Of a stretch of DNA of 38,396 nt, positions 3,094 through 27,215 are shown piece by piece. Origin of the DNA: a virus; the IMG/VR virus record IMGVR_UViG_3300012271_000026, positions 1 through 38,396 of that record; one strand, given 5' to 3'. The notes under the pieces are model-generated. The model was not told the origin of the DNA, did not search any database, and saw nothing but the letters and a program-made list of their open reading frames with translations. Both the position numbers and the translations under genes were made by a program. How positions within the stretch are numbered: the first letter of the stretch is position 1; every line of letters starts with the position of its first letter.

Positions 3094-4110
3094 TTACGGG
3101 GTGGTATCCCATCCATAATAAGTTCCAGAGAAATGTCCGGCTGCAACAGAAGCTGCATTACCGATCGCTCCGCCGAGTGTTTCCCATGCCCAGAACTCAA
3201 TCCAAATGTCTTCGGCTTTAGTGCTGAGAGTGGTATCACGCAAGGCGTAGTTTTTACCGGTGAACTTAGGTTCAGCAAACTGATAGATAGTATTGGTCGG
3301 AACCAATTTTTTCTTAATCGTTACTGCCCAGTCAAGTCCCATGATCTTCTGTTCAGAGAAACCATTCTTGAACATCTCTTCCGCGAGATCTCCACCGATT
3401 TCATCACGAGTCAAACCAACAACGTCACGTACTGTGATGTTATTAACAAGAGCGATGCTCGGGTTAAGACTGCGGTTGGTAGTAGGCAGACCTTTTGTGA
3501 ACTCTTTAAGGGAGTCACGATCCATACCTGTAGCACCACCGAGAGTAATATTCTGATTAGCTTCCAGTTCAGCATTCCAACTGTTGACGTTAACATTACC
3601 AGCAGCTGCAATAGTTGCCGGATCAGTAGAGTTGCCCTGAGTAACAATATATGTTACAACAGAAAGGAATTTACGATCTTCTTCTTCCTGAATCTTCTTC
3701 AGAAGGATATCTTCCATGACCTGTTTGATATCCATGCGATATGTGATCAATTTATCAATATCAATACGATGACGTTTTGACATGATACGATCAAACATAA
3801 CACGGAATTTAGGTCCTTTAATATACGCTCCGATAGGCATTGTTCCGAAAGGTACTGAGTAAGCCGCGCTTGCGTTTGGCTCTTTCTCAACAACTTTTGT
3901 AGGAACATCAGTGTCGACCTGATCGGTCAACTCATCAGCCGTGATGGTGCGGATAGGAAGAATCTTACGATAGAAGCCATCTTCATACAGACGCATGCGA
4001 AGATATTCTTCTGCACCCTCTGCTGCTTCTTTATACATTTCTGTCCCTTTAGGAGACAGTAACCCATCAATTAATTCTTGATTGGCTATTTCTTTTACTG
4101 CTTCGCTCAT
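3094..4110 (-). CDS. Major capsid protein (HK97-fold type)
   Basis: This is a 338-residue protein with a GAGGAG ribosome site. It follows protease, scaffold and accessory-protein genes in the classic head-gene order, and a strong terminator follows it. Features fitting an HK97-fold coat protein are a charged helical N-arm (1-45), a YRKILP.RTITADEL segment, a long helix around VMEDILLKKIQEEEDRKFL (about residues 130-150, spine-helix position), a Gly/Asn-rich central domain, and a C-terminal beta section ending in aromatic residues. The N-terminal region (about 1-35) is Glu/Ala-rich, as in arms trimmed by prohead proteases, but I cannot fix a cleavage site. No other gene here fits the coat protein better. 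The family assignment rests on context and general layout. Confidence 0.78.
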   Translation of the reverse strand: MSEAVKEIANQELIDGLLSPKGTEMYKEAAEGAEEYLRMRLYEDGFYRKILPIRTITADELTDQVDTDVPTKVVEKEPNASAAYSVPFGTMPIGAYIKGPKFRVMFDRIMSKRHRIDIDKLITYRMDIKQVMEDILLKKIQEEEDRKFLSVVTYIVTQGNSTDPATIAAAGNVNVNSWNAELEANQNITLGGATGMDRDSLKEFTKGLPTTNRSLNPSIALVNNITVRDVVGLTRDEIGGDLAEEMFKNGFSEQKIMGLDWAVTIKKKLVPTNTIYQFAEPKFTGKNYALRDTTLSTKAEDIWIEFWAWETLGGAIGNAASVAAGHFSGTYYGWDTTP

Positions 4111-6191: not shown

Positions 6192-8780
6192 CTATACAAA
6201 TTTCTGCAGAACAGACATCTTTTCTGCAAACTCATCATCACACACCCTGTTAAAAGACAGAAGGTATTTACCATACTCTTTGGCCACAAAATCAGCTGCG
6301 CTGTTTTCTTCCGAAGATTTTTTATGCAGGTTCAACTTCTTGTCCACATCATCCGATCCGTTATTAAGGATCGTGATAGTTATTCTTTTCTTAACAGGTC
6401 CGAATTCCATAGAATGAGATCCTATCATCTTATCCAGGAGAGGTTTTATATGTCTATGCTCTCCAGGCATCCCGTCATATGTTCCGTCTTTTAGTATGTC
6501 ATCCATATCATCTGATCCCAGCATATCAGAGAACAATGTCGGCATTCTATCCTTAACTGCCGGCATAAGTTCATCTGAGCTGTCTTTATCAGGAGAGTTT
6601 TTAAGCATGAGCTCCATGAATAATTCCAGAGGTAGCACAACTTTACTTCCGTGCATGAGTCCGAGACTCCTATCAGTATCTCTGTTTATCACATCTCCTG
6701 TGTTTTCATCAATATCTTTGAAACCTGATTTATCACAGAAAGCGCCTTTAGCTACATCATCTCCAGTGGCTATGATCTCTTTCTCCAATTCAGCAAGTTT
6801 GACAAGTTTGGAATATTTATCAAATACTTTTCCGTAAAGACTGTCCGCCAGACTGCTGGGTGCTACGTAGCCCTCAAGTTCGGCAAGTTCTACAGATGTC
6901 ACTACTTCGCCTGACGCTACCTTTCGTAAAGCAAATGCGATTTTATCAGCAGGTTTAATAACACCGCTGATGTCATGGAAATGTGGAGCATCATTAATAA
7001 CAAATACTTGATGCCCGTCATCCAGTATGGCGAGTTTGTGCATCTTGATATGATCACAGGAATCTTTAAAGCTTTTTCTCTTATGGCCACAGATCGAACA
7101 AATGTCATATTTAACACCGCAATTATGAACAGCCATATCATTAGCAAGATAACTATGATCTTCGTCCGCAACATGTAAATTATACACACAAGCAGTATCT
7201 ATAAACTGTGTGTTCTCTTTTACTCTGGATAATAAATAGTTACCATATATTTTTCTGTGCCCTTTACTTCCTCGTGTGCTGAAAGAAGCAGGCGGCTCGC
7301 TTATTTTAGTGGAGTACGGGTAAAACATGGCTGTGAAATTTTTAGAGCATCTTACCTTATAGCCCAGAGTATATCCTAACTGTGTCTTCTTGGATATGGC
7401 CGAATAATTATTGGTCTCTATGGCTAAAGTAGCCGGTTCCCCCATTCTAGCCAGAATAAGCTGGGAGTCCATAGCCAACTGCCTGCTGGCTGTGAAAAAA
7501 GACGCATTGTATCGACCCCTGCCTTTATTGGCACCGGTTTCAAAATAGCCATCACCTTCGTGATAAGCGCCCATGAATATTTTTTGATAAGAGACATCCC
7601 AGGCCATAACAGAAGATCCTATATATTTATCTTTCGCACCTGACCCGAACAGTTCTTTAAACAGAGCCGCCAGTTTGTGATCATAAATTGTTATATCAGC
7701 AGCTTCTTTACAATCCCGTCTGGGGATAATATTTACTTTATAACCTAAAGCAGTGCCTATATTTTCCGCGTCTTTGTATAAAGTATCCTTTTTATTGCAG
7801 GTCATACAGATACCGTCGGGCTCTTTATTTTTACTCAATGTAACATAACCCTCGGCCAGATAATAACCGCAAAGCCTGGCGAACTCGTCATTAACATAAG
7901 AAGGCGTGTGTGTCTCAGAAGGGATAGGCGTCATTAAATAATCATCTGGTTTAACATCAGCAGCCTCCACCCATACAGCTTTAGATTCGACATCCACTTC
8001 TTTATGATACCGTTTAGTAGAGGGGTTGATAACATCCTTTTCTCTTAAAATAGAATAAGGGTGGTAATCTGTGCCTGTCAGGGTAAATCCCCCTGCCGGA
8101 TGTATTCTGTTGAACAGCCCGTCTTTTATTTTTATAACACGTGTAGATTCCACTCTTACACATTTACCCTTGCGATTTACCACGACGTCTCCTGCCTGCA
8201 CATCCTCTACAGGTATCCGGGAACCATTGAGAGTACTCACTAGAGTTCCTGCTATAAAACATCCCTGTGAGAGATAGACCGGCTCATCGTTCGCCAGCTT
8301 CTCAATCTCATCATGCCATTTATCATTATCTACGGATATGATAAGCTCACCCCTGTTAAGATCGTCATTCATAGCTTCTTTTATTATAGTCCCGGAAGCG
8401 TTATCAGGGTTCTTATTATCTTTATGATTCTTATAAACGTAACCTTTATCCATATAAGTCTTATGATATTTATCCAGGCCTCCGTCCAGAGTGATGGTTG
8501 CTTCAGATCCTCTCTTAGGCATAGGCAGAGTATAAGAGCGGCTGTGTCTGTTAAACCCGTCACAATTGGAATTGGCACCGTATGTTTCCATAGCACCTGT
8601 GGTTATAACATGGATAAGCGTATGACCCTTTTCAGGTTTAATATCGTCTTTTATGTCATCGAACATGGCGGCACGTTTCATAAGCCAGCCTTTGTCAACA
8701 CCCTTGGAATGAACTTCCATGAGTTTAGCTACAGGGACTTCAAAATTAAAAGCGTCCGGTCTTATACGTTTAGATAACAT
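6192..8780 (-). CDS. Prohead maturation protease containing an intein
   Basis: The product is 862 residues; removing the intein (174-553) leaves 482. The N-extein carries the features of a phage prohead serine protease: a beta-rich core, KNHKD with the likely catalytic His119, and LSQG with the likely catalytic Ser171. After the intein comes CGVKYDICSICGH, with later Cys and His (CDHIKMH), a probable zinc site. The C-terminal part is helical with an acidic region. The gene lies directly upstream of scaffold and capsid genes, where such proteases are found; it should cut scaffold and head proteins inside the prohead. Ribosome site AAGGAG. Function is inferred from the His/Ser layout and context. 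Activity would require intein splicing, because the insertion separates the active-site strand from the zinc region. Confidence 0.78.
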   Translation of the reverse strand: MLSKRIRPDAFNFEVPVAKLMEVHSKGVDKGWLMKRAAMFDDIKDDIKPEKGHTLIHVITTGAMETYGANSNCDGFNRHSRSYTLPMPKRGSEATITLDGGLDKYHKTYMDKGYVYKNHKDNKNPDNASGTIIKEAMNDDLNRGELIISVDNDKWHDEIEKLANDEPVYLSQGCFIAGTLVSTLNGSRIPVEDVQAGDVVVNRKGKCVRVESTRVIKIKDGLFNRIHPAGGFTLTGTDYHPYSILREKDVINPSTKRYHKEVDVESKAVWVEAADVKPDDYLMTPIPSETHTPSYVNDEFARLCGYYLAEGYVTLSKNKEPDGICMTCNKKDTLYKDAENIGTALGYKVNIIPRRDCKEAADITIYDHKLAALFKELFGSGAKDKYIGSSVMAWDVSYQKIFMGAYHEGDGYFETGANKGRGRYNASFFTASRQLAMDSQLILARMGEPATLAIETNNYSAISKKTQLGYTLGYKVRCSKNFTAMFYPYSTKISEPPASFSTRGSKGHRKIYGNYLLSRVKENTQFIDTACVYNLHVADEDHSYLANDMAVHNCGVKYDICSICGHKRKSFKDSCDHIKMHKLAILDDGHQVFVINDAPHFHDISGVIKPADKIAFALRKVASGEVVTSVELAELEGYVAPSSLADSLYGKVFDKYSKLVKLAELEKEIIATGDDVAKGAFCDKSGFKDIDENTGDVINRDTDRSLGLMHGSKVVLPLELFMELMLKNSPDKDSSDELMPAVKDRMPTLFSDMLGSDDMDDILKDGTYDGMPGEHRHIKPLLDKMIGSHSMEFGPVKKRITITILNNGSDDVDKKLNLHKKSSEENSAADFVAKEYGKYLLSFNRVCDDEFAEKMSVLQKFV
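7122..8261 (-). mobile_element. Intein with LAGLIDADG endonuclease in the prohead protease
   Basis: Residues 174-553 of the host protein. It begins CFIAGTLV, the usual Cys1 block A, and ends VHN before extein Cys554. The TDYHPYS segment fits block B, and YNLHVADEDHSYLAN fits block F. Two endonuclease helices are visible: LCGYYLAEGYV (about 303-313) and MGAYHEGDGYF (about 403-413), both keeping an acidic residue. All splicing residues look intact. The insertion point is two residues after the predicted catalytic serine. Confidence 0.93.
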
Positions 8781-12944: not shown

Positions 12945-15900
12945 TTAACTCCCGTTTTGTGTATAATCTGAATATATCTTTTTACCCTCAATAACTGATG
13001 GTATATAACTCGTATCTCCTGTCTTACTGACAGATCCTTGTGTTGCCGCGTCCAGGAATGATTTCTTTAAATTGAACCCGCCCAGCCTTACTTTCCAGTC
13101 AGGGTCTGTGCCCGGCAAATCCATGATTCTGGTCATCACAGGTTCGAAAGGTGGCGCTTCTCCATGTACTACAATACTTTTAATTCCGGCATTTGACAAA
13201 TCTTTAGCTACGTTTCCTGTAATTTTTGTTCCTATTGTATAATGAAGTGCAGGTTTTTCCATATACATACCTTTGGAAGCTATAGGTGTTTTTACACGAA
13301 ATCCTTTCCTGGGTGCGTACTCTCTTACAAGTGCGTCATAAGGCACTACATCATCTACATAATAACCACCATAACCCTCAGGTTTATTTATTTTAACACG
13401 GTTGATCAACCCCCTGGATAAAGCCTCAACGTTACGTCTGTGATTGCCGGCACCGTTGTCCTGGAGCATCTGTGTGTATTTTTCTGCGAAATATCTACGT
13501 CCCTCTCCTATTCCCTTGAACTGGACAACCTCAGCAGGATTAGGTATGCCTTCTGACAATACATCCCCTGCTTCTACTTTCTGACCTGCTTTGACAGATA
13601 TTTTAACACCTTGTGGTATGTAATGCTGCTCTCTGTTAACAGTTACGTAAGTACCTCCCTGTGGTGCCGGTTTAATATCTGAAACATTACCAGCATGCTG
13701 GGATAATGTAGCTCCTCCCTGAAAATTCTTAGGAACGTTCACAAACTGTGATATCTCTTTGAACCCACTCAATTTTTTATCGTCCTGGCCTGCTACTCCT
13801 CCTGAATGTTTGGAAGAGTTACTAACTATAAGCCCGTTAGCTAAGACAAATAGATGTGAAGCAGAGTCTACTTGTATATCATATGTAGGTAATTCCCCTA
13901 TATACTCCTGAGAAAGTCTTCTGCACCTATTATATCTTAGATTAGCGTTTTGTTTGGTTATCGGGGATTCTACTGCTTCTTTCTTTAATCTCTTGATCCC
14001 ATATAGAGGTATATATCTTTTAAATTTCATTATGGAATCTTCTTTTGATACCGTAAAAGTATGCAGAGCTCTCTTTCTCTGACTTTTATTATAATTTTTA
14101 TGTATTTGTGTCCCGTATATACCGAACCTCCATCTAAGCAGTTCGTGAACCTGCTCTGCCAGTTTTAAAGAGGTGCTTCCGAAAGCAAAATAATTTCTAT
14201 TACTGCTCTTGCTTTTATATACAGAGCCGTCACTGATAAAAAGTCCTCCTATTAGCTCTGCTATTGATTTATTACTCCATGAATAAGCCTCCGTAGGTAT
14301 TTCTTTTTCATAAGCATATTTCCTTAACATGCTATGGTCCGCTAACCATTTCCTAGCTGGGTTGGTGTAACCTTCTTTAAGATATCTGCCTGTCCTGTTA
14401 TCCCTACTCCCTCCGGTACTATCAGAAGATACTTTGTAATAAATACCATCATGCCCTTTAAGCTGTGTAAAAAATAAACCTAGGTTATCCATATAATCAA
14501 TCAGTTCTTCTATAAGCGAGTCGTCTGCGCAGGAAAAATTAACACTATTGACAGAGTCTGTATAGCATCCGTCTCCTAATAACAGGCCCGCTAAAAGAGC
14601 GAAAGGCTCTTCTTTGTAGCTCCCTGTACTATCATCAAAAGTTTCAGGGAGCACAGACATAATCCATGCGCCCGGCTCACCCGCAGGAAGAATACGAGGT
14701 ATTCCGTTATATTTCTCACCCCCGCAGTTTGATTTATGCGTCATCTGAAGAACTTTATGATCCAGTGTACTGTAAAGTTCTATTGTATGCTTAGTACTGG
14801 TAGAGTACCTGTAAATAGTCTTATACACCCCTTTACTGCCGTTGGTAAAAGTATCTACTACATTTACAGGATAGGTGCTCCCGCCCTCATCAGCCCCCAA
14901 AACTTTATCACCCTTTTTTATATCTTGTATTTTTTTTACAGAATAATCAGCCATCCTAACTGCTGTGTCCTCTGCTAAACATAACGCCATCTGGATAGTA
15001 GGTTCTGCCACGGCTCTTGCAGCGGTTACGCCTACAGCTGTCCCCACAGGTGGGAAGTCACCGTTCTCACGGTGTCCTGAACACTTAGAACATATCCCAT
15101 CATCTGCCTGGCAGGTCATAGTAGACCTTGTATAAATATCCTTACCCTTGAGTTTCTTTATGTCCCCCTTCTCTATAACATGACCTGCCTCAAAACCTGC
15201 TGCAGGTCTTATCAGAACAGCCCCTATATTATGGGGATCATCTCCACTTACTTTTATTCCGTTATCGGTTCCACAATCTTTTTCAGTAACTACTACTCTA
15301 TGGGCGCCCTGTGTAAGCAGTTTACCGAAGTAACCACTGTCTGCAGTTCCAAACTGAACAGCTGCATAACCCATACGTGATCCATAACTACCTGCCCAAT
15401 ATTCCTTAGTACCCGCCCCTTCTCCATAACCTGTAAGCCCTGCTATCGGAATAGGCTTGCCCTGACTGTCCACTACCATCATGTCTCCGTAAAGAAGCTG
15501 CATTATCTGGGAGGGTTTACCGCGGGCACCTGTCTTAAGCTGCATTATAAGAGAATTTGTCTTAGGGTCCATACCGGATATAACATCCTGTACCTTTTTC
15601 ATTTCAGGGAGCATAAATTTAACAATGGCATCTCTCTTCTGAGTATCAGAGAGATTGGGGTTCTGTGTTATGCTGTCAACATATATCTTATGTTTATCCC
15701 GCATCTTTTTAAGCTCGGGACTAAGCTGGAAATCCTTGAGTGATACTGACCCGGTGCCTCCATAATAAGTAGCTGCGTCAGATGACACTTTACCTATATT
15801 CTGAAGTGAAGACACATAATCATCAGGGGACTCGTCAGCAATACGTGAGAGAAGTTTCAGAAGACCTTTCTGATCCAGTCTCTCCGTATCGTCTCTAAAT

Positions 15901-15956
15901 TGTTCCGGCACAGCTGCCCTGAACAACAGTCTCCCTGGAGTAGTGACTTCATTCAT
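12945..15956 (-). CDS. RNA polymerase beta' C-terminal half containing an intein
   Basis: The product is 1003 residues; excising the intein (326-713) leaves 615. It begins TTPGRLLFRAAVP, matching bacterial beta' just after the active-site domain (TTVGR). Next come TGARGKPSQIMQLLYGD (about 142-158, bridge helix region), YGSRMGYAAVQFGTADSGY (191-209, trigger loop), and four cysteines of the second beta' zinc site (C228, C282, C289, C292). VGTAVGVTAARAVAEPTIQ and, after splicing, SSKHSGG match the motif near the bacterial EPGTQLTMRTFH. The C-terminus keeps LSEGIPNP and later beta' jaw/clamp motifs. It lacks the DFDGD domain, which is in the fusion gene 5.5 kb upstream. No clear ribosome site is visible; the start is 9 bases after the previous stop, suggesting coupling. 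Confidence 0.92.
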   Translation of the reverse strand: MNEVTTPGRLLFRAAVPEQFRDDTERLDQKGLLKLLSRIADESPDDYVSSLQNIGKVSSDAATYYGGTGSVSLKDFQLSPELKKMRDKHKIYVDSITQNPNLSDTQKRDAIVKFMLPEMKKVQDVISGMDPKTNSLIMQLKTGARGKPSQIMQLLYGDMMVVDSQGKPIPIAGLTGYGEGAGTKEYWAGSYGSRMGYAAVQFGTADSGYFGKLLTQGAHRVVVTEKDCGTDNGIKVSGDDPHNIGAVLIRPAAGFEAGHVIEKGDIKKLKGKDIYTRSTMTCQADDGICSKCSGHRENGDFPPVGTAVGVTAARAVAEPTIQMALCLAEDTAVRMADYSVKKIQDIKKGDKVLGADEGGSTYPVNVVDTFTNGSKGVYKTIYRYSTSTKHTIELYSTLDHKVLQMTHKSNCGGEKYNGIPRILPAGEPGAWIMSVLPETFDDSTGSYKEEPFALLAGLLLGDGCYTDSVNSVNFSCADDSLIEELIDYMDNLGLFFTQLKGHDGIYYKVSSDSTGGSRDNRTGRYLKEGYTNPARKWLADHSMLRKYAYEKEIPTEAYSWSNKSIAELIGGLFISDGSVYKSKSSNRNYFAFGSTSLKLAEQVHELLRWRFGIYGTQIHKNYNKSQRKRALHTFTVSKEDSIMKFKRYIPLYGIKRLKKEAVESPITKQNANLRYNRCRRLSQEYIGELPTYDIQVDSASHLFVLANGLIVSNSSKHSGGVAGQDDKKLSGFKEISQFVNVPKNFQGGATLSQHAGNVSDIKPAPQGGTYVTVNREQHYIPQGVKISVKAGQKVEAGDVLSEGIPNPAEVVQFKGIGEGRRYFAEKYTQMLQDNGAGNHRRNVEALSRGLINRVKINKPEGYGGYYVDDVVPYDALVREYAPRKGFRVKTPIASKGMYMEKPALHYTIGTKITGNVAKDLSNAGIKSIVVHGEAPPFEPVMTRIMDLPGTDPDWKVRLGGFNLKKSFLDAATQGSVSKTGDTSYIPSVIEGKKIYSDYTQNGS
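13818..14981 (-). mobile_element. Intein with LAGLIDADG endonuclease in RNA polymerase beta'-C
   Basis: Residues 326-713. It begins CLAEDTAVRM (Cys1) and ends GLIVSN before extein Ser714. The penultimate residue is Ser, not the common His. The endonuclease motifs are LLAGLLLGDGCY (about 454-465) and LIGGLFISDGSVY (about 568-580), each with an Asp. The TLDHKV segment (about 397-402) fits block B. The insertion point falls within the highly conserved segment corresponding to bacterial EPGTQLTMRTFH. Confidence 0.92.
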
Positions 15957-20709: not shown

Positions 20710-21513
20710 TTATTTTATATTTTTACGGCCCCAATCTTTTTCTGCTGTAGGTCCTTTGCTGTCTGTGGGGAAAGGCTTAAGAGTCTTCCCCACAATACGC
20801 CCTCCTATAAGACCTGTTAAAGGCATACCAAGTGCAGACCCTACATATGACCCAGAAGCAGTCCCTAGTTTTTTCTGCGCGTTTTTTAAAACATCTTTAA
20901 GCCGCTCTTTGTTGTTGCCGTACTTTTTCTTGTAATAAGAGTTGAGAAGACGCATCCCTCTCTCGGAAGCTGTGAACTCCTGAGGTAGCGCCAGGAACTT
21001 ACCGGCTGCAGGTATGCCCCTTAAAAAACCATAAGCCCCAGGATTATTTCGTTTAGAAAAATCGTGAGCATGGCCTAACTCGTGGGCTAGTATATCAGGA
21101 TCATTATTATAAAGAGTTACAGCGTGGGAAGCCGGATTATAATGATCTGCTCTCGTTAGAGCTGTCGTTGCTGCTGTCGTAGGCCAACGCAAAGTAGATA
21201 GAATTTTGGTCAAAGCACTTGTTCTGGGATTCTTCCAGGTACGGGTAAGATCGTCAATAGGTTTACCACCACCCAAGTTTAAACGTAGTTCCATACCATC
21301 ATCAGTTTTATCTTTTACCATTTCAATAATCTTAACTAGATCTTTTTTGTTCGCTCCTGGCTTTAATGGCGCTGAGGTACCTAGAAGCGTTGTTTTTAAT
21401 CCACCTAATCTTCCTATTGTACTTGAGACGGGTCGAGTGTACATAGGCTCTCTATCCTGAACTTCTACGGATTTTTTTGATAAATATCCCTGTATATATG
21501 CTAACTTGCTCAT
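20710..21513 (-). CDS. Tagged HELGH zinc metalloprotease, probable packaged cargo
   Basis: This is a 267-residue protein whose ATG overlaps the stop of the upstream polymerase fusion (ATGA). It begins MSKLAYIQGYLSKKS, a variant of the N-terminal tag seen on five other proteins here. ILAHELGHAHDF (about residues 139-150) carries the HExxH zinc motif with catalytic Glu. QEFTASERG about 35 residues on could supply the third ligand, as in gluzincin-type enzymes. The C-terminus has a hydrophobic GSALGMPLTGLIGG stretch and a basic tail. It should be a metallopeptidase; the target is unknown. The tag suggests loading into the head and delivery to the host, but that is inference. Confidence 0.8.
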   Translation of the reverse strand: MSKLAYIQGYLSKKSVEVQDREPMYTRPVSSTIGRLGGLKTTLLGTSAPLKPGANKKDLVKIIEMVKDKTDDGMELRLNLGGGKPIDDLTRTWKNPRTSALTKILSTLRWPTTAATTALTRADHYNPASHAVTLYNNDPDILAHELGHAHDFSKRNNPGAYGFLRGIPAAGKFLALPQEFTASERGMRLLNSYYKKKYGNNKERLKDVLKNAQKKLGTASGSYVGSALGMPLTGLIGGRIVGKTLKPFPTDSKGPTAEKDWGRKNIK

Positions 21514-24500
21514 GTTCTTTGTATCCTTATAGGGGAGTCAACATCTATATCGCCTCTTCTGTATGCTAATATAGCATCTTTTTCGCTAGAAAACACTGCA
21601 GGTTTACCGGGTTTAGGATCTTTTGTTGCAAAATGTGCACCCATGGCATATTCCATATCAGGCTTCCATAAGAGATTGAAATCCCTGGCTCCTTTAAGAT
21701 TTTTGCCAGGAGACATCTTAGCTCGGGCTTCCTCTACAGCTTCCTGTGATACAGGCACGTGCGCTACCATAGTGTCTCCATCAAAGTCCCCTGCTATCGG
21801 TCCCAGCAGGAAATTACTTACCTGAATATTATCGCCCTTGATAAGAAGGGGCTCCAGTGCCACCATGCTATACTTATGCATTGTAGGAGCACGGTTCATA
21901 ATAACAGGACGTTCTTTTATAACTTTCCTCATTGATGTCTCGGCTCTGTCAGTTTTCTCGGCAACGGCTTTTACAGCCTCACCCGCCTTATAGCCTGACT
22001 TAACCATATCAGATATTATAAACTGCTCATAAAGTTTCCAGGCCATGTTAATAGGAATACCTACCTGATCAACTTTTATATTAGGATTAGGTGTTATTAC
22101 ACCTCTTCCCGATACATCCTGAGGCCCACCAATCATTCTACGCTGGAACTGTCCACGCTTAGGACTGCCTTTACCAAAGATACTTTTAAGTATGCCTCCG
22201 ACATTTTTCTGCTGGAGTTCTTTATTAGAAGGATCAGCCAAGCCTGTTATAGCTTTAAAATCTTTATAAACGGAAGATCTCACCTGTCTAAGCATATCTT
22301 CCGGAAGTTCGTCTTTACCGTCGCGCAGATCGTCCCTAGAATTAACGAGCTCTCTATATAGAAAGTTCACATCAGCAACCATGTTCATATCATCAGCGAT
22401 GGTTATAGGTCTGTATTTAGGGGGCAGTACAGGAATCTTTGTAATCATAAAGTCTTCCGGTTTTACCTTATTATCTTTCATACTCTGCAGAGCTCTAAGT
22501 CTTTTTACCGCCTTGTCTCTCCTGGACTGGACACCTGATCTTATATCTGTGAGGGCTGTAAGTATTTCCTGATTCATATTTACATCTTTAAGCATCTGCT
22601 CCATTGCTTCTCCACCGCGTTTCTTCTTGTATTCAGTATCTCCTGAAACAACAGAATCAAATTCTTTGGTAGTCATACCCAGAATACGTTTAACAGGCTC
22701 TTCCATAACAGGATTGAGTATAGGTTCATCGAGCTGGATATATCCGAACCTGTCTCCTTCAACACCCCCAGTAGCTCGCTCACTAAATAAACCTCCGGGT
22801 ACGGGCAGGAGCGTCCTCGGATCATATGTTTCCCCGCTTTTTATCTCGTGCCCCTTAGTCAGCTTATCAATATCATCTGCTGTCATGGCAAAAATATGTT
22901 CCCCCTCCTGATCATCATAAAGATTAACACCGGCAGCCTTTATCTGGTCCTTGAATTTCTTGTATATAAACAGATCATCAGGAGCCTTAGGTGTACGGCC
23001 CATTTTAAGCTGACGCCAGTATTCATCATTCTTCTGCCCTTTTATGAGCTTCATATCTCTCAGTACTTCAGGAACACCGTAGGATACCATGGCAGCTACC
23101 TCCATACCTCCTATACGTTTACTCTCGCCTCCTGGTTGATTATCCTGGGAATAACTTCCCAGGGAACGCGCACTCTGTTTGTTTTCGCTCATATGCTGGA
23201 GTTTATAGAAATAAGAGTTGCCTACGAATACATCTTTTATGGTACGGCCTGTGACAGGGTCTTTAACATTCTCTGTGTCAGACATTCCGTTCTTTTTTAA
23301 TTCGTGCTGTGCTTTTTCAATAAGTGATTCATCAGTGAAAGCATCAACAGCATATCTTTTACCTGTCTTGGCCGCTACTTTACCCAGAGCAGCTTCAGCT
23401 AACTGTGCTGAGTTGGTACGCGACACTATACCTAATGGATCCAGGATGATATCCAGAGCTCTGCCTTCGGAATCCTGGGGCATCTCGGAATCGGGGAGTA
23501 TCTTGGAGATAACACCTTTATTACCATGACGCCCTGACAGCTTGTCCCCTACCTTGGCTTCTGAGGTACTTCTTACAAATACTCTGTAACCGTCTTTGGT
23601 CTGTGCTACATCTGTTACCACACCTTTTGAATGGTGATCCCACACAGAGGAGGCGTCAGAGTTCAATTTACGATTCAGGGTACCAGGAGTAGGAGGCCTG
23701 TTTTTAACGGCCAGTATAAGAGGATCTCCTGTCTCTACAATAGACCCAGGTTTTATTACACCATCATCATCAAATTTATCCAGGATAGTTTTCTTGTAAG
23801 CTCCGGGGAATATACTTACGAATTTTCTTTTGTTAACATCAATATTACTCTCCTGTCGGAACTTGGTAGTATACATATGTTCACTGGTGAGTTTCTTTGC
23901 TGCTGCTTCTGAAATAGCAATACCGTCTTCGTGAGAATTATGAACAATAAGACCCCCGTCTATCATAAATGTATCTAAAGGCCGCATATCCATATCATAC
24001 ACAATATCCCCTTTAGTACCTTCTATGGTATCCACGCTTTCTACGGTATCCCACCATATAGGGGCTCTCACTAGAGAAGCAAGGCACTCAGGGAGTTGGT
24101 CTATATAAGGAAGCAGAATATCTCTAGATACAATATTATTATCCGATACGACTCTTTTTCCTATAATCTTATTAACTATTTTTTTATGCTCAGCGAGCAC
24201 AGGTATACGATCTTTAGACCAACGTTGCTTCTTATTTTTAAGTTTAATTAATCTATCATTTTTCCTCTTTGAACTAAGAGCTGGAAATTTTGCATAAGAA
24301 TAGGCGAAAACTTTAATTCTGTACTCATCCTGCCATATAGTAGGATATCTCCGGTATGTGGCTCTAACACCCATAGACCCTAAAAGAAAACAAATACCTT
24401 TTGCCAGTTCTTCGGATCTGGTGGAGGCTGTCAGCTCTTTGGTCACTGTACCGTCTCCACACCAGTAACCATCTATAAACCCTTCTATAATATCCTTGTT

Positions 24501-26426
24501 TGTTAGTATCTCTGCGGGTATCTTTTTCCCGGTGCAGAGATAACCGCAATATTTCTTCAACCACTTAGCTAAGCAGGCCCTTGTAGTCAAAACACTGTTT
24601 CCATTACGGTGATGGTGCATATCGTGTTTATTATAAAAATATTCCAATTTATTATTAAGATCTCCCTCTTTTGGGTGTATCGCTATATTCACACACTTAG
24701 TAGGTTCTCCTACTGCATAGCCTTCCGCCACAAACATACCTAGAAACCAACCAAAATCTTTATCCAGCTCTGTACGGAAAGAGGCCCCTCTGCCTTTACC
24801 TTGTATAACCAGTTGTTTCTGTCCTGTTCCTTGTATGGCAGGCTGAGCTACCGGTAACATAGTCTTTCCGGCCACCATTTCTCTGGGAGTTATCTCAGCT
24901 ATTTCACCCTCCTCGTTCATAGCCATAAAACTATGGTAATCTGTAGCTTTATAAACAGATCCGTCTATCGTTTTTACCTGAATAAGATCATCGTCTGATA
25001 TGTGTGTGCTCTTCCCGTAAACAGGTAGATTCTCGACTTGTTTATTTTTGCAATCCAGTGCGGCTGCTTTTATATGTTTATTAGAGGGTATATCTTCTAT
25101 GTTATTATAATGAGGTACGCCTTGTTCATCTACCCAGTAAACCATACTATCTTTGCTGACAGAGTAACCCTTCCATGGCATATAACCTACTCTAAGATTA
25201 AGTCCAATGGCTGCGTCGCCTTTATCCGTGGTATAGTTGGAAGTAGCCAGTGTCTGGCCCTTCTTTACCATATCCCCCGCCTTTACCTTAGGGTAACTGT
25301 TAGTGTACGTCTTACGGGCATGTGGGAAGTTATGATACATCTGATAGGACTTCTTGTTACCTTCTTTATCTTTTACAATGATTTCGTTTTTACCCACCTT
25401 CTCTACAATACCATATGAATCCGCGGTAGTGTGATAAGAAAGTTTACCCATAAGTTGATTGGTGTCTGAGCCATCATAAAGCTTATTAGTTACCAATGGT
25501 GTTTCCTTAGTGGTAAGAGGCAGAGCCTGTAAACTCATTTTACTACCCATGAGCAGACGCATACCTTTTACTCCGGAAAACTGTGAAACATTATTCGTCA
25601 TAGTACTAAACATTCTTGAGGAATGGGGTATGACATAATCTATTTTATCTCTGGGAACATATTTCAGGCCCTGTGTTCCATGTAATACCGCTAACATTTT
25701 GGACTTGGTATCTTTCATAGTTTCAGGAAAAGCTACATTGGATTTAGCAGCTATACTTGCCGGAACGAACTCCTCTTTACGAGTTTTAGGGTTATACAGT
25801 TTCTGCCATAGCTGTCCATCAGAACTGAACCGGGCATCCCTAGCTAGGTAATTATCCACTCCTATTCGTAAACTCTCAGGAGATCTAATAGGATCTATAT
25901 AACCTAGAAAAGAATTCTGTACTGCACGTGACTCATCCGGGATGGCATCCATACTCGTAATTCCGCCGGGGCCCAGTCTTGTTATTTTATGATTTAGATC
26001 ATACTGCTCCAGAGGGTTGATACCTTCTATGAGCTGATTAAGCCCTGAGTCATTGAATGTGGCATTTATATGTTTATCAAATACTGCGTGAGGCACCGCG
26101 CCTTTAAGAGTTCCCTTATTGGTAATCTTCCACAACATGTTCCTGGCTAGATAACCAGGATCCTTGGCAATACGATCAGCTATAAAATCCTGAGCTCCGT
26201 AAACTTTCTGATACTCCAGTGAATCTCTGACATCTTCCTTATCTTCTCCTCTGGACATTCCTAAAAGTTTTGCGGATGAATGCAGAAGCATCTGGGGGTT
26301 GACGTTTCCGTAAGGCAGACCCAGTGTAGACTCAGTAGCACCTTCGTTGAGTCCCGAATTGAGGAACGCGTCGATCAGGGGCTGGTGCTCGTTTACTTCT
26401 TCAATTTGTTCAGGTTGTTCTAGCAT
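21510..26426 (-). CDS. RNA polymerase beta C-terminal part fused to beta' N-terminal part, with intein
   Basis: The product is 1638 residues, 1229 after removal of the intein (422-830). Residues about 128-155 match the beta rifampicin-site region (NPLEQYDLNHKITRLGPGG). IDPIRSPESLRIGVDN matches the bacterial CPIETPEGPNIGL region. LRVGYMPWKGY/SHEDGIAIS matches bacterial MPWNGYNFEDSI. GDKLSGRHGNKG (960-971) and RIGGMEVAAMVSYG are beta C-terminal motifs. From about 1210 the chain turns into beta': DRFGYIQLDEPILNP, IPVLPPKYRP (1331-1340), NRAPTMHK (1511-1518), and the metal-binding DFDGD (D1547, D1549, D1551). It ends with SPIRIQRT, just where beta'-C begins. It lacks the beta N-terminal lobe, which is the adjacent gene. 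The start codon has no good ribosome site. Confidence 0.94.
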   Translation of the reverse strand: MLEQPEQIEEVNEHQPLIDAFLNSGLNEGATESTLGLPYGNVNPQMLLHSSAKLLGMSRGEDKEDVRDSLEYQKVYGAQDFIADRIAKDPGYLARNMLWKITNKGTLKGAVPHAVFDKHINATFNDSGLNQLIEGINPLEQYDLNHKITRLGPGGITSMDAIPDESRAVQNSFLGYIDPIRSPESLRIGVDNYLARDARFSSDGQLWQKLYNPKTRKEEFVPASIAAKSNVAFPETMKDTKSKMLAVLHGTQGLKYVPRDKIDYVIPHSSRMFSTMTNNVSQFSGVKGMRLLMGSKMSLQALPLTTKETPLVTNKLYDGSDTNQLMGKLSYHTTADSYGIVEKVGKNEIIVKDKEGNKKSYQMYHNFPHARKTYTNSYPKVKAGDMVKKGQTLATSNYTTDKGDAAIGLNLRVGYMPWKGYSVSKDSMVYWVDEQGVPHYNNIEDIPSNKHIKAAALDCKNKQVENLPVYGKSTHISDDDLIQVKTIDGSVYKATDYHSFMAMNEEGEIAEITPREMVAGKTMLPVAQPAIQGTGQKQLVIQGKGRGASFRTELDKDFGWFLGMFVAEGYAVGEPTKCVNIAIHPKEGDLNNKLEYFYNKHDMHHHRNGNSVLTTRACLAKWLKKYCGYLCTGKKIPAEILTNKDIIEGFIDGYWCGDGTVTKELTASTRSEELAKGICFLLGSMGVRATYRRYPTIWQDEYRIKVFAYSYAKFPALSSKRKNDRLIKLKNKKQRWSKDRIPVLAEHKKIVNKIIGKRVVSDNNIVSRDILLPYIDQLPECLASLVRAPIWWDTVESVDTIEGTKGDIVYDMDMRPLDTFMIDGGLIVHNSHEDGIAISEAAAKKLTSEHMYTTKFRQESNIDVNKRKFVSIFPGAYKKTILDKFDDDGVIKPGSIVETGDPLILAVKNRPPTPGTLNRKLNSDASSVWDHHSKGVVTDVAQTKDGYRVFVRSTSEAKVGDKLSGRHGNKGVISKILPDSEMPQDSEGRALDIILDPLGIVSRTNSAQLAEAALGKVAAKTGKRYAVDAFTDESLIEKAQHELKKNGMSDTENVKDPVTGRTIKDVFVGNSYFYKLQHMSENKQSARSLGSYSQDNQPGGESKRIGGMEVAAMVSYGVPEVLRDMKLIKGQKNDEYWRQLKMGRTPKAPDDLFIYKKFKDQIKAAGVNLYDDQEGEHIFAMTADDIDKLTKGHEIKSGETYDPRTLLPVPGGLFSERATGGVEGDRFGYIQLDEPILNPVMEEPVKRILGMTTKEFDSVVSGDTEYKKKRGGEAMEQMLKDVNMNQEILTALTDIRSGVQSRRDKAVKRLRALQSMKDNKVKPEDFMITKIPVLPPKYRPITIADDMNMVADVNFLYRELVNSRDDLRDGKDELPEDMLRQVRSSVYKDFKAITGLADPSNKELQQKNVGGILKSIFGKGSPKRGQFQRRMIGGPQDVSGRGVITPNPNIKVDQVGIPINMAWKLYEQFIISDMVKSGYKAGEAVKAVAEKTDRAETSMRKVIKERPVIMNRAPTMHKYSMVALEPLLIKGDNIQVSNFLLGPIAGDFDGDTMVAHVPVSQEAVEEARAKMSPGKNLKGARDFNLLWKPDMEYAMGAHFATKDPKPGKPAVFSSEKDAILAYRRGDIDVDSPIRIQRT
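23937..25163 (-). mobile_element. Intein with LAGLIDADG endonuclease in the beta part of the polymerase fusion
   Basis: Residues 422-830. It begins SVSKDSMVYW (Ser1 in place of Cys1) and ends GLIVHN before extein Ser831. ATDYHSF (about 494-500) fits block B. Endonuclease motifs are WFLGMFVAEGYAV (about 560-572) and GFIDGYWCGDGTV (about 649-661). It splits the beta motif MPWKGY/SHEDG, one of the most conserved places in the subunit. Confidence 0.93.
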
Positions 26427-26462: not shown

Positions 26463-27215
26463 TTAAGTACTCTGTCCATCATTGTTTTCCTGTCCATCAT
26501 TATTCTCCTGTTCTTCTTTATTGTATTTAGGTACAAAAATATCATAAGCACTATTAACAGCGCGTTTCTCGTTAACTACTTTATTCTTATTTAGTATATC
26601 CTCTCCCCACGTCTGTTTCAAGTCATCATCAGTAACTCCCATAGCCTTAAGAACAGGATAAGCCGGGACCTTTCTACCGCCGGCTCTGAAATCGAACTGG
26701 GCTGTCTGTGGATCAAACTGAAGTTTAAACTGTGTACCCGTGCCTTGTTTAACATTTACAAATGTCTCAAACTTACCATCATTGGTCTTACGGGAATAAG
26801 CGCCTGGTACCATACGCATCTGGTTTATCATTACTGATTCATTACCATTACGTACAAAAGTACCACGCTGTGTCAGATAGGGTACATTGGCTACCACTCT
26901 GCGTCCGCCTTTCTCCAGAACATTGCCTGTAACAGTATCTTTAAGAATGAATCTACCCTTAAGCTGTTTGGCCAGTGTACGTCCTCCAAGAATGGCGTCC
27001 TTTTGTTCTCTTAAAGTGAAAGGCTTGTCCAGATCATCATAGTCAATATCCTCCAGCTCCAGTGTATAGCGTTCGTTGCTTAAAGGGAAGCGCTGTTTAG
27101 CAGCTTCCTTAGCAGCATCGAAAACAAGCGAGCGCCTGCGATCGAAGTCATCAAACTGGATAAGTTCGTCGGTAGGTGCCGCTGTTATTTTCTCTATATA
27201 TTTAGCTGGTGGCAT
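26463..27215 (-). CDS. RNA polymerase beta N-terminal lobe (separate polypeptide)
   Basis: This is a 250-residue protein. VANVPYLTQRGTFVRNGNES and INQMRMVPGAYSR (about 107-140) match the conserved bacterial beta segment [20 protein letters not shown]...SQLHRSPGVF. FKLQFDPQTAQFDFRAGGRK (about 163-182) matches the following [20 protein letters not shown], and PAYPVLKAMG matches the ALNYTTE region. So this is the beta1-lobe half, roughly E. coli beta 30-230. Bacterial beta would continue into the next gene, which starts 37 bases downstream, where it is fused to beta'. The C-terminus is low-complexity (ENNDGQENNDGQST). The start overlaps the preceding stop region with a weak ribosome site. Polymerase assembly must join the pieces non-covalently. 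Confidence 0.92.
   Translation of the reverse strand: MPPAKYIEKITAAPTDELIQFDDFDRRRSLVFDAAKEAAKQRFPLSNERYTLELEDIDYDDLDKPFTLREQKDAILGGRTLAKQLKGRFILKDTVTGNVLEKGGRRVVANVPYLTQRGTFVRNGNESVMINQMRMVPGAYSRKTNDGKFETFVNVKQGTGTQFKLQFDPQTAQFDFRAGGRKVPAYPVLKAMGVTDDDLKQTWGEDILNKNKVVNEKRAVNSAYDIFVPKYNKEEQENNDGQENNDGQST

Follow-up and report, generated by a model that had tools for sequence, protein, structure and literature searches.

Does an intein that interrupts a phage gene two residues past the predicted catalytic serine of a head maturation protease serve as a device that times the maturation of the capsid, or is it a selfish element lodged at codons that cannot vary? We examined such a locus in a stretch of viral DNA of 38,396 nucleotides (IMG/VR record IMGVR_UViG_3300012271_000026; hereinafter, the window), and found the second answer to be the most likely one. 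The evidence outlined below gives us considerable confidence that a class 1 LAGLIDADG homing intein is inserted in frame in the gene for a phage prohead (head maturation) serine protease, where it would splice, home, and persist at invariant active-site codons.

Anatomy of the precursor gene and the intein

The precursor gene (6192-8780; this gene and all its features are on the minus strand) is an open frame of 862 codons without a stop, the product of which would be a 482-amino-acid protein once spliced, assigned to its family via relatives. The N-extein (8262-8780, amino acids 1-173) ends in VYLSQG, and the C-extein (6192-7121, 309 amino acids and the stop) begins with CGVKYDICSICGH. Between them lies the intein of 380 amino acids, C174 to N553 of the precursor, which maps exactly to 7122-8261, the position given in the original prediction, with the junctions LSQG^CFIAGT...AVHN^CGVKYD. 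All elements of a class 1 intein are in place, namely, Cys1 (8259-8261), invariant in the intein alignment (A3), the block B motif T-D-Y-H of the TxxH form (8061-8072, intein T64-H67), the C-terminal VHN and Cys+1 (His-Asn/Cys+1 junction at 7119-7127), and the insertion in frame. Both LAGLIDADG motifs, LCGYYLAEG (7848-7874) and MGAYHEGDG (7548-7574), are present with their acidic residues.

Profile searches agree with this assignment. The precursor matches Pfam LAGLIDADG_3 with an E-value of 9e-10, exceeding the gathering score, and the NCBI model of the intein C-terminal region, TIGR01443, with 22.0 bits compared to the cut-off of 15.6; the matches to Hint_2 and Intein_splicing are weak. In the AlphaFold model of residues 1-660 of the precursor (mean pLDDT 76), the intein part is predicted to adopt the Hint fold, and its best Foldseek matches are the inteins PI-SceI, TliVMA and PI-PfuI (E-values from 6e-19, for PI-SceI, to 1e-14). 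These inteins of solved structure likewise combine a Hint splicing domain with a LAGLIDADG endonuclease, but reside in other host genes and are only 11-17% identical to the window intein in structural alignment. Chance does not account for an open frame of 380 amino acids that contains all splicing and homing motifs and is missing at this position in over 80 homologues.

The host gene belongs to the head maturation protease family

The spliced extein of 482 amino acids belongs to the family of head maturation proteases (prohead serine proteases), as was originally proposed. Using tblastn, we identified relatives without the interruption in Salmonella phage Arash, Vibrio phages, Bacillus phage G, and phages of Gordonia, Rhodococcus and Mycobacterium; a profile scan of IMG/VR yielded 80 uninterrupted loci, and there was one weak match in a bacterial genome (L088). 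All 50 non-redundant relatives match phrog_18299, 'head maturation protease' (best E-value 1e-17), several also match other PHROGs of that name, and three match Peptidase_S78 (best 0.0026). The connection to known proteases at the profile level thus runs via the relatives, to which the window extein is linked by homology; in Pfam and NCBIfam, the window protein itself had no match to a protease model. The structural model of an intein-free relative with 49% identity (L008; mean pLDDT 79) matches many predicted viral 'prohead protease' entries in Foldseek, with E-values down to 4e-6; neither a fold search of the PDB with this model nor a sequence search of the PDB with the extein profile produced a significant match. 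The gene order points in the same direction: a gene for an HK97-fold major capsid protein is located downstream (3094-4110), the neighbours of the window protease gene are shared with three relatives (L008, L009 and L105), and the genes of relatives are annotated as lying between the portal and capsid genes.

The window protease resembles those of HK97 (Peptidase_S78), T4 (gp21, S77) and phiKZ (gp175, S80) in the order of the His and Ser residues and in the motif around the serine (VSMG/LSQG-like), and probably plays the same role, judging from the gene order; the model of its relative also matches predicted prohead proteases in fold. Unlike these enzymes, it contains a C-x2-C...C-x2-H knuckle immediately after the serine, and the S77 profile (PF03420) matched none of 18 phage records.

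Position of the insertion relative to the active site

The residues originally named as the likely nucleophile and its upstream histidine, Ser171 (8268-8270) and His119 (8424-8426), are each invariant in 81 of 81 aligned sequences. In a profile comparison with the T4 gp21 alignment, they fall opposite Ser140 and His85, respectively, although the hhalign probability is low (3-8%). Asp223 (extein numbering; precursor residue 603, 6972-6974), D179 and the three cysteines of CSIC...C are invariant as well. By analogy with the published triad of the SPN3US protease, H77, S153 and D178, which has been matched to T4 gp21 (PMC5694885), Asp223 is a candidate for the third, acidic catalytic residue; T4 D168 aligns two columns away from it. 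The CSIC...CDH segment (7050-7100; extein C181, C184, C195 and H197) is a putative zinc knuckle, recognized by sequence. In six other loci (L130-L134 and L137), Cys+1 is replaced by Ser and the knuckle cysteines are altered (e.g. SKVPYDTSSITLDW), so this feature is not found throughout the family.

The intein is thus inserted two residues past the best candidate for the nucleophile, as predicted, between the S-Q-G motif that includes Ser171 and the zinc-knuckle insert. Alignment of intein-free homologues, the check proposed at the outset, revealed the empty site in 80 loci and six cultured phages, with the sequence continuous across the junction, e.g. 'WSQGCGVPEDICSICGN' in L008. In the model of this relative, a single beta strand (residues 167-173) holds the serine (169) and crosses the junction (171/172). 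The precursor model lacks this strand, and pLDDT falls below 50 at residues 171-174, which is consistent with an inactive precursor. Because the intein splits the serine-bearing strand, the precursor is presumably inactive before splicing.

A recurrent target of homing

Single-sequence scans of viral contigs detected no close relatives of either the whole precursor or the intein, and profile and junction-pattern scans were needed to find them. A scan with the pattern HN-C-x4-D-x-C-S-I-C, which does not require an endonuclease, identified five other contigs, and all five contain LAGLIDADG inteins at the identical site, with the homing motifs intact. When an intein profile scan was combined with extein-profile mapping, the number of different inteins located at S-[MQ]-[GAS]^C reached 29, including that of the window; because this set was found via the LAGLIDADG motif, it is no measure of how frequently the endonuclease is retained, and all intein counts given here are lower bounds that depend on the patterns used. 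One site-174 case with an uncertain C-terminal junction (L151) was misplaced by the automatic mapping. The site after the catalytic serine is a recurrent homing target.

At least five other sites in the protease gene are occupied, before extein residues 69 (L114, L171), 117 (L149; two residues ahead of the catalytic His), 176 (Eggerthella phage LE2-3), 181 (L165 and, by eye, the first of two inteins in L116) and 195, the third zinc-knuckle cysteine (L089/L114, L116 and, by eye, L138 and L140). At least two inteins are present in a single gene in L089/L114, L116 and L171. Among 50,697 records of cultured phages, LE2-3 was the only one found to carry an intein in the protease gene. Its gene LE23_71 (MW679026.1, 45222-48335; L094/L187), annotated as 'tRNA synthetase', encodes an intein-bearing prohead protease, which explains the erroneous public annotation; the protease family and the LAGLIDADG type of the intein are the same as in the window, but the insertion is two residues further on (SMGLN^C).

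A similar arrangement has been described for the terminase (TerL) of mycobacteriophages, where inteins with functional homing endonucleases occupy sites a to g through independent invasions (Kelley et al. 2016, PMC5050341). In both cases, several sites cluster around the active center of an essential enzyme of virion assembly; TerL, however, is the packaging ATPase, whereas here the host is the head maturation protease and the dominant site adjoins the catalytic serine. Phage inteins have been described in terminase, RNR, helicase and other genes, and a partial literature search turned up no earlier report of one in a prohead protease. The element is of a known kind; its host gene, for a virion-maturation protease, and its site appear to be unreported. 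This gene has a dominant homing site at the nucleophile and five or more others, including one next to the catalytic His and some at the zinc knuckle. It thus offers a series of natural cases in which to study the preference of inteins for active centers, and a way to find out whether the maturation of phage capsids is ever gated by splicing.

Mobility and inheritance

The distribution of the inteins is patchy. In the extein tree of 91 sequences, the intein label requires 17 changes, at least 11 of these on well-supported branches, and the window belongs to a supported group of three together with one intein-bearing (L105) and one intein-free (L008) relative. A clear case of recent transfer into the same site is the pair L130/L137, in which the intein DNA is 97.4% shared, compared to 74% for the N-extein and 72% for the C-extein DNA. 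The identities of inteins and exteins correlate overall (Spearman 0.57), and therefore, vertical inheritance occurs as well. The nearest relative of the window intein, in L105, is only 37% identical (45% for the exteins), so the window intein is old, and the comparison with L105 gave no sign of its recent transfer. Both intein-free alleles of the site and lateral spread are thus observed, the latter in relatives rather than in the window copy.

Under the model that we favor, the intein would splice spontaneously by an N-S acyl shift at Cys1, transfer to Cys+1, and cyclization of Asn aided by the penultimate His, to yield the 482-amino-acid protease. The freed intein would then act as an endonuclease, cut the allele that lacks an intein in relatives infecting the same cell, and be copied in. 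It would persist because the invariant codons of the active site keep the target conserved and imprecise loss is lethal. The original expectation that inteins favor conserved active sites is supported, in that they persist at conserved active-site positions.

Competing explanations

We considered several alternatives to a selfish homing intein in a protease gene. A frameshift or assembly artefact was rejected in view of the 862 open codons and the 28 parallel cases, and a group I intron in view of the in-frame insertion and the protein motifs. That the intein is dead and decaying, and blocks the protease of a pseudogene or a defective phage, is a general possibility for any metagenomic contig, but one of negligible probability here: no residue is seen to be lost, the splicing residues are all intact, as are both acidic endonuclease motifs, the frame runs through 862 codons without a stop, and the base composition of the intein is similar to that of the host gene. 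It is also very improbable that the extein is some other virion protein and that the catalytic serine is misread. The lack of Pfam and NCBIfam protease matches to the window protein, the lack of a PDB fold match for the model of the relative and the weak match to T4 gp21 would fit such a protein; they are outweighed by the match of all 50 relatives to the head maturation protease PHROG, and of several to others of that name and to S78, by the Foldseek matches to many predicted prohead proteases, by the alignment of His and Ser with those of T4 gp21, and by the gene order.

The original prediction further held that the activity of the protease is tied to splicing, which could act as a timing or redox switch. 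The first part follows logically from the position of the insertion: the protease must splice to work. Regulation by splicing, in contrast, is unsupported, and we regard it as improbable that slow or conditional splicing (responsive to redox state, zinc or temperature) times the maturation of the capsid. Apart from the dependence of activity on splicing, the Cys-rich downstream extein might be cited in its favor, as might Cys1 inteins such as mycobacterial DnaBi1, for which responses to oxidation or to zinc are reported (PMC6195587, PMC7360933). Most relatives, however, have no intein at this site, and all five inteins that were identified without bias toward the endonuclease have intact homing motifs. 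The case for redox control was built on Cys1 and Cys+1, which are ordinary nucleophiles present in every Cys-type class 1 intein and no sign of such control; a disulfide partner close to Cys1, such as a Cys at -3, is absent from positions -3 to -1, which are S-Q-G. The patchy distribution and the transfer of intein DNA further argue against regulation, and several different insertion sites in one gene are hard to square with a single conserved switch. We rejected the redox switch as the default reading. Slightly more doubtful still is the proposal that inteins at the catalytic serine are kept as a maturation gate that keeps the protease from acting before the prohead has been assembled.

Other inteins and polymerase genes

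The window contains a second intein, at roughly 13818-14981, within a gene for the RNA polymerase beta' subunit (Rpb1 domain 5; 12945-15956, minus strand). It matches LAGLIDADG_3 and Hom_end_hint, with the junction at about EPTIQMAL^C...VSN^SSKHSGG, which we take to be the start of the trigger loop, near its catalytic His. An RNA polymerase beta-like protein of 1638 amino acids and a related fragment are encoded at 21510-26426 and 26463-27215 (minus strand), so the phage has genes for a multi-subunit RNA polymerase of its own.

Related inteins in L139, L142 and L144 reside in another gene clade, with motifs such as '...SH^C...HN^[CS]DAWERKLL...FKTFIGAENYVEHIQI'; this is possibly a further clade of prohead proteases, with the intein near an N-terminal motif. 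Cytosine methyltransferase-like proteins of L185 (MT835477.1) and of Mannheimia phage 587AP2 (L095) contain distantly related inteins at a Pro-Cys motif (G-F-P^C and G-T-P^C), the cysteine of which is probably that of the active site.
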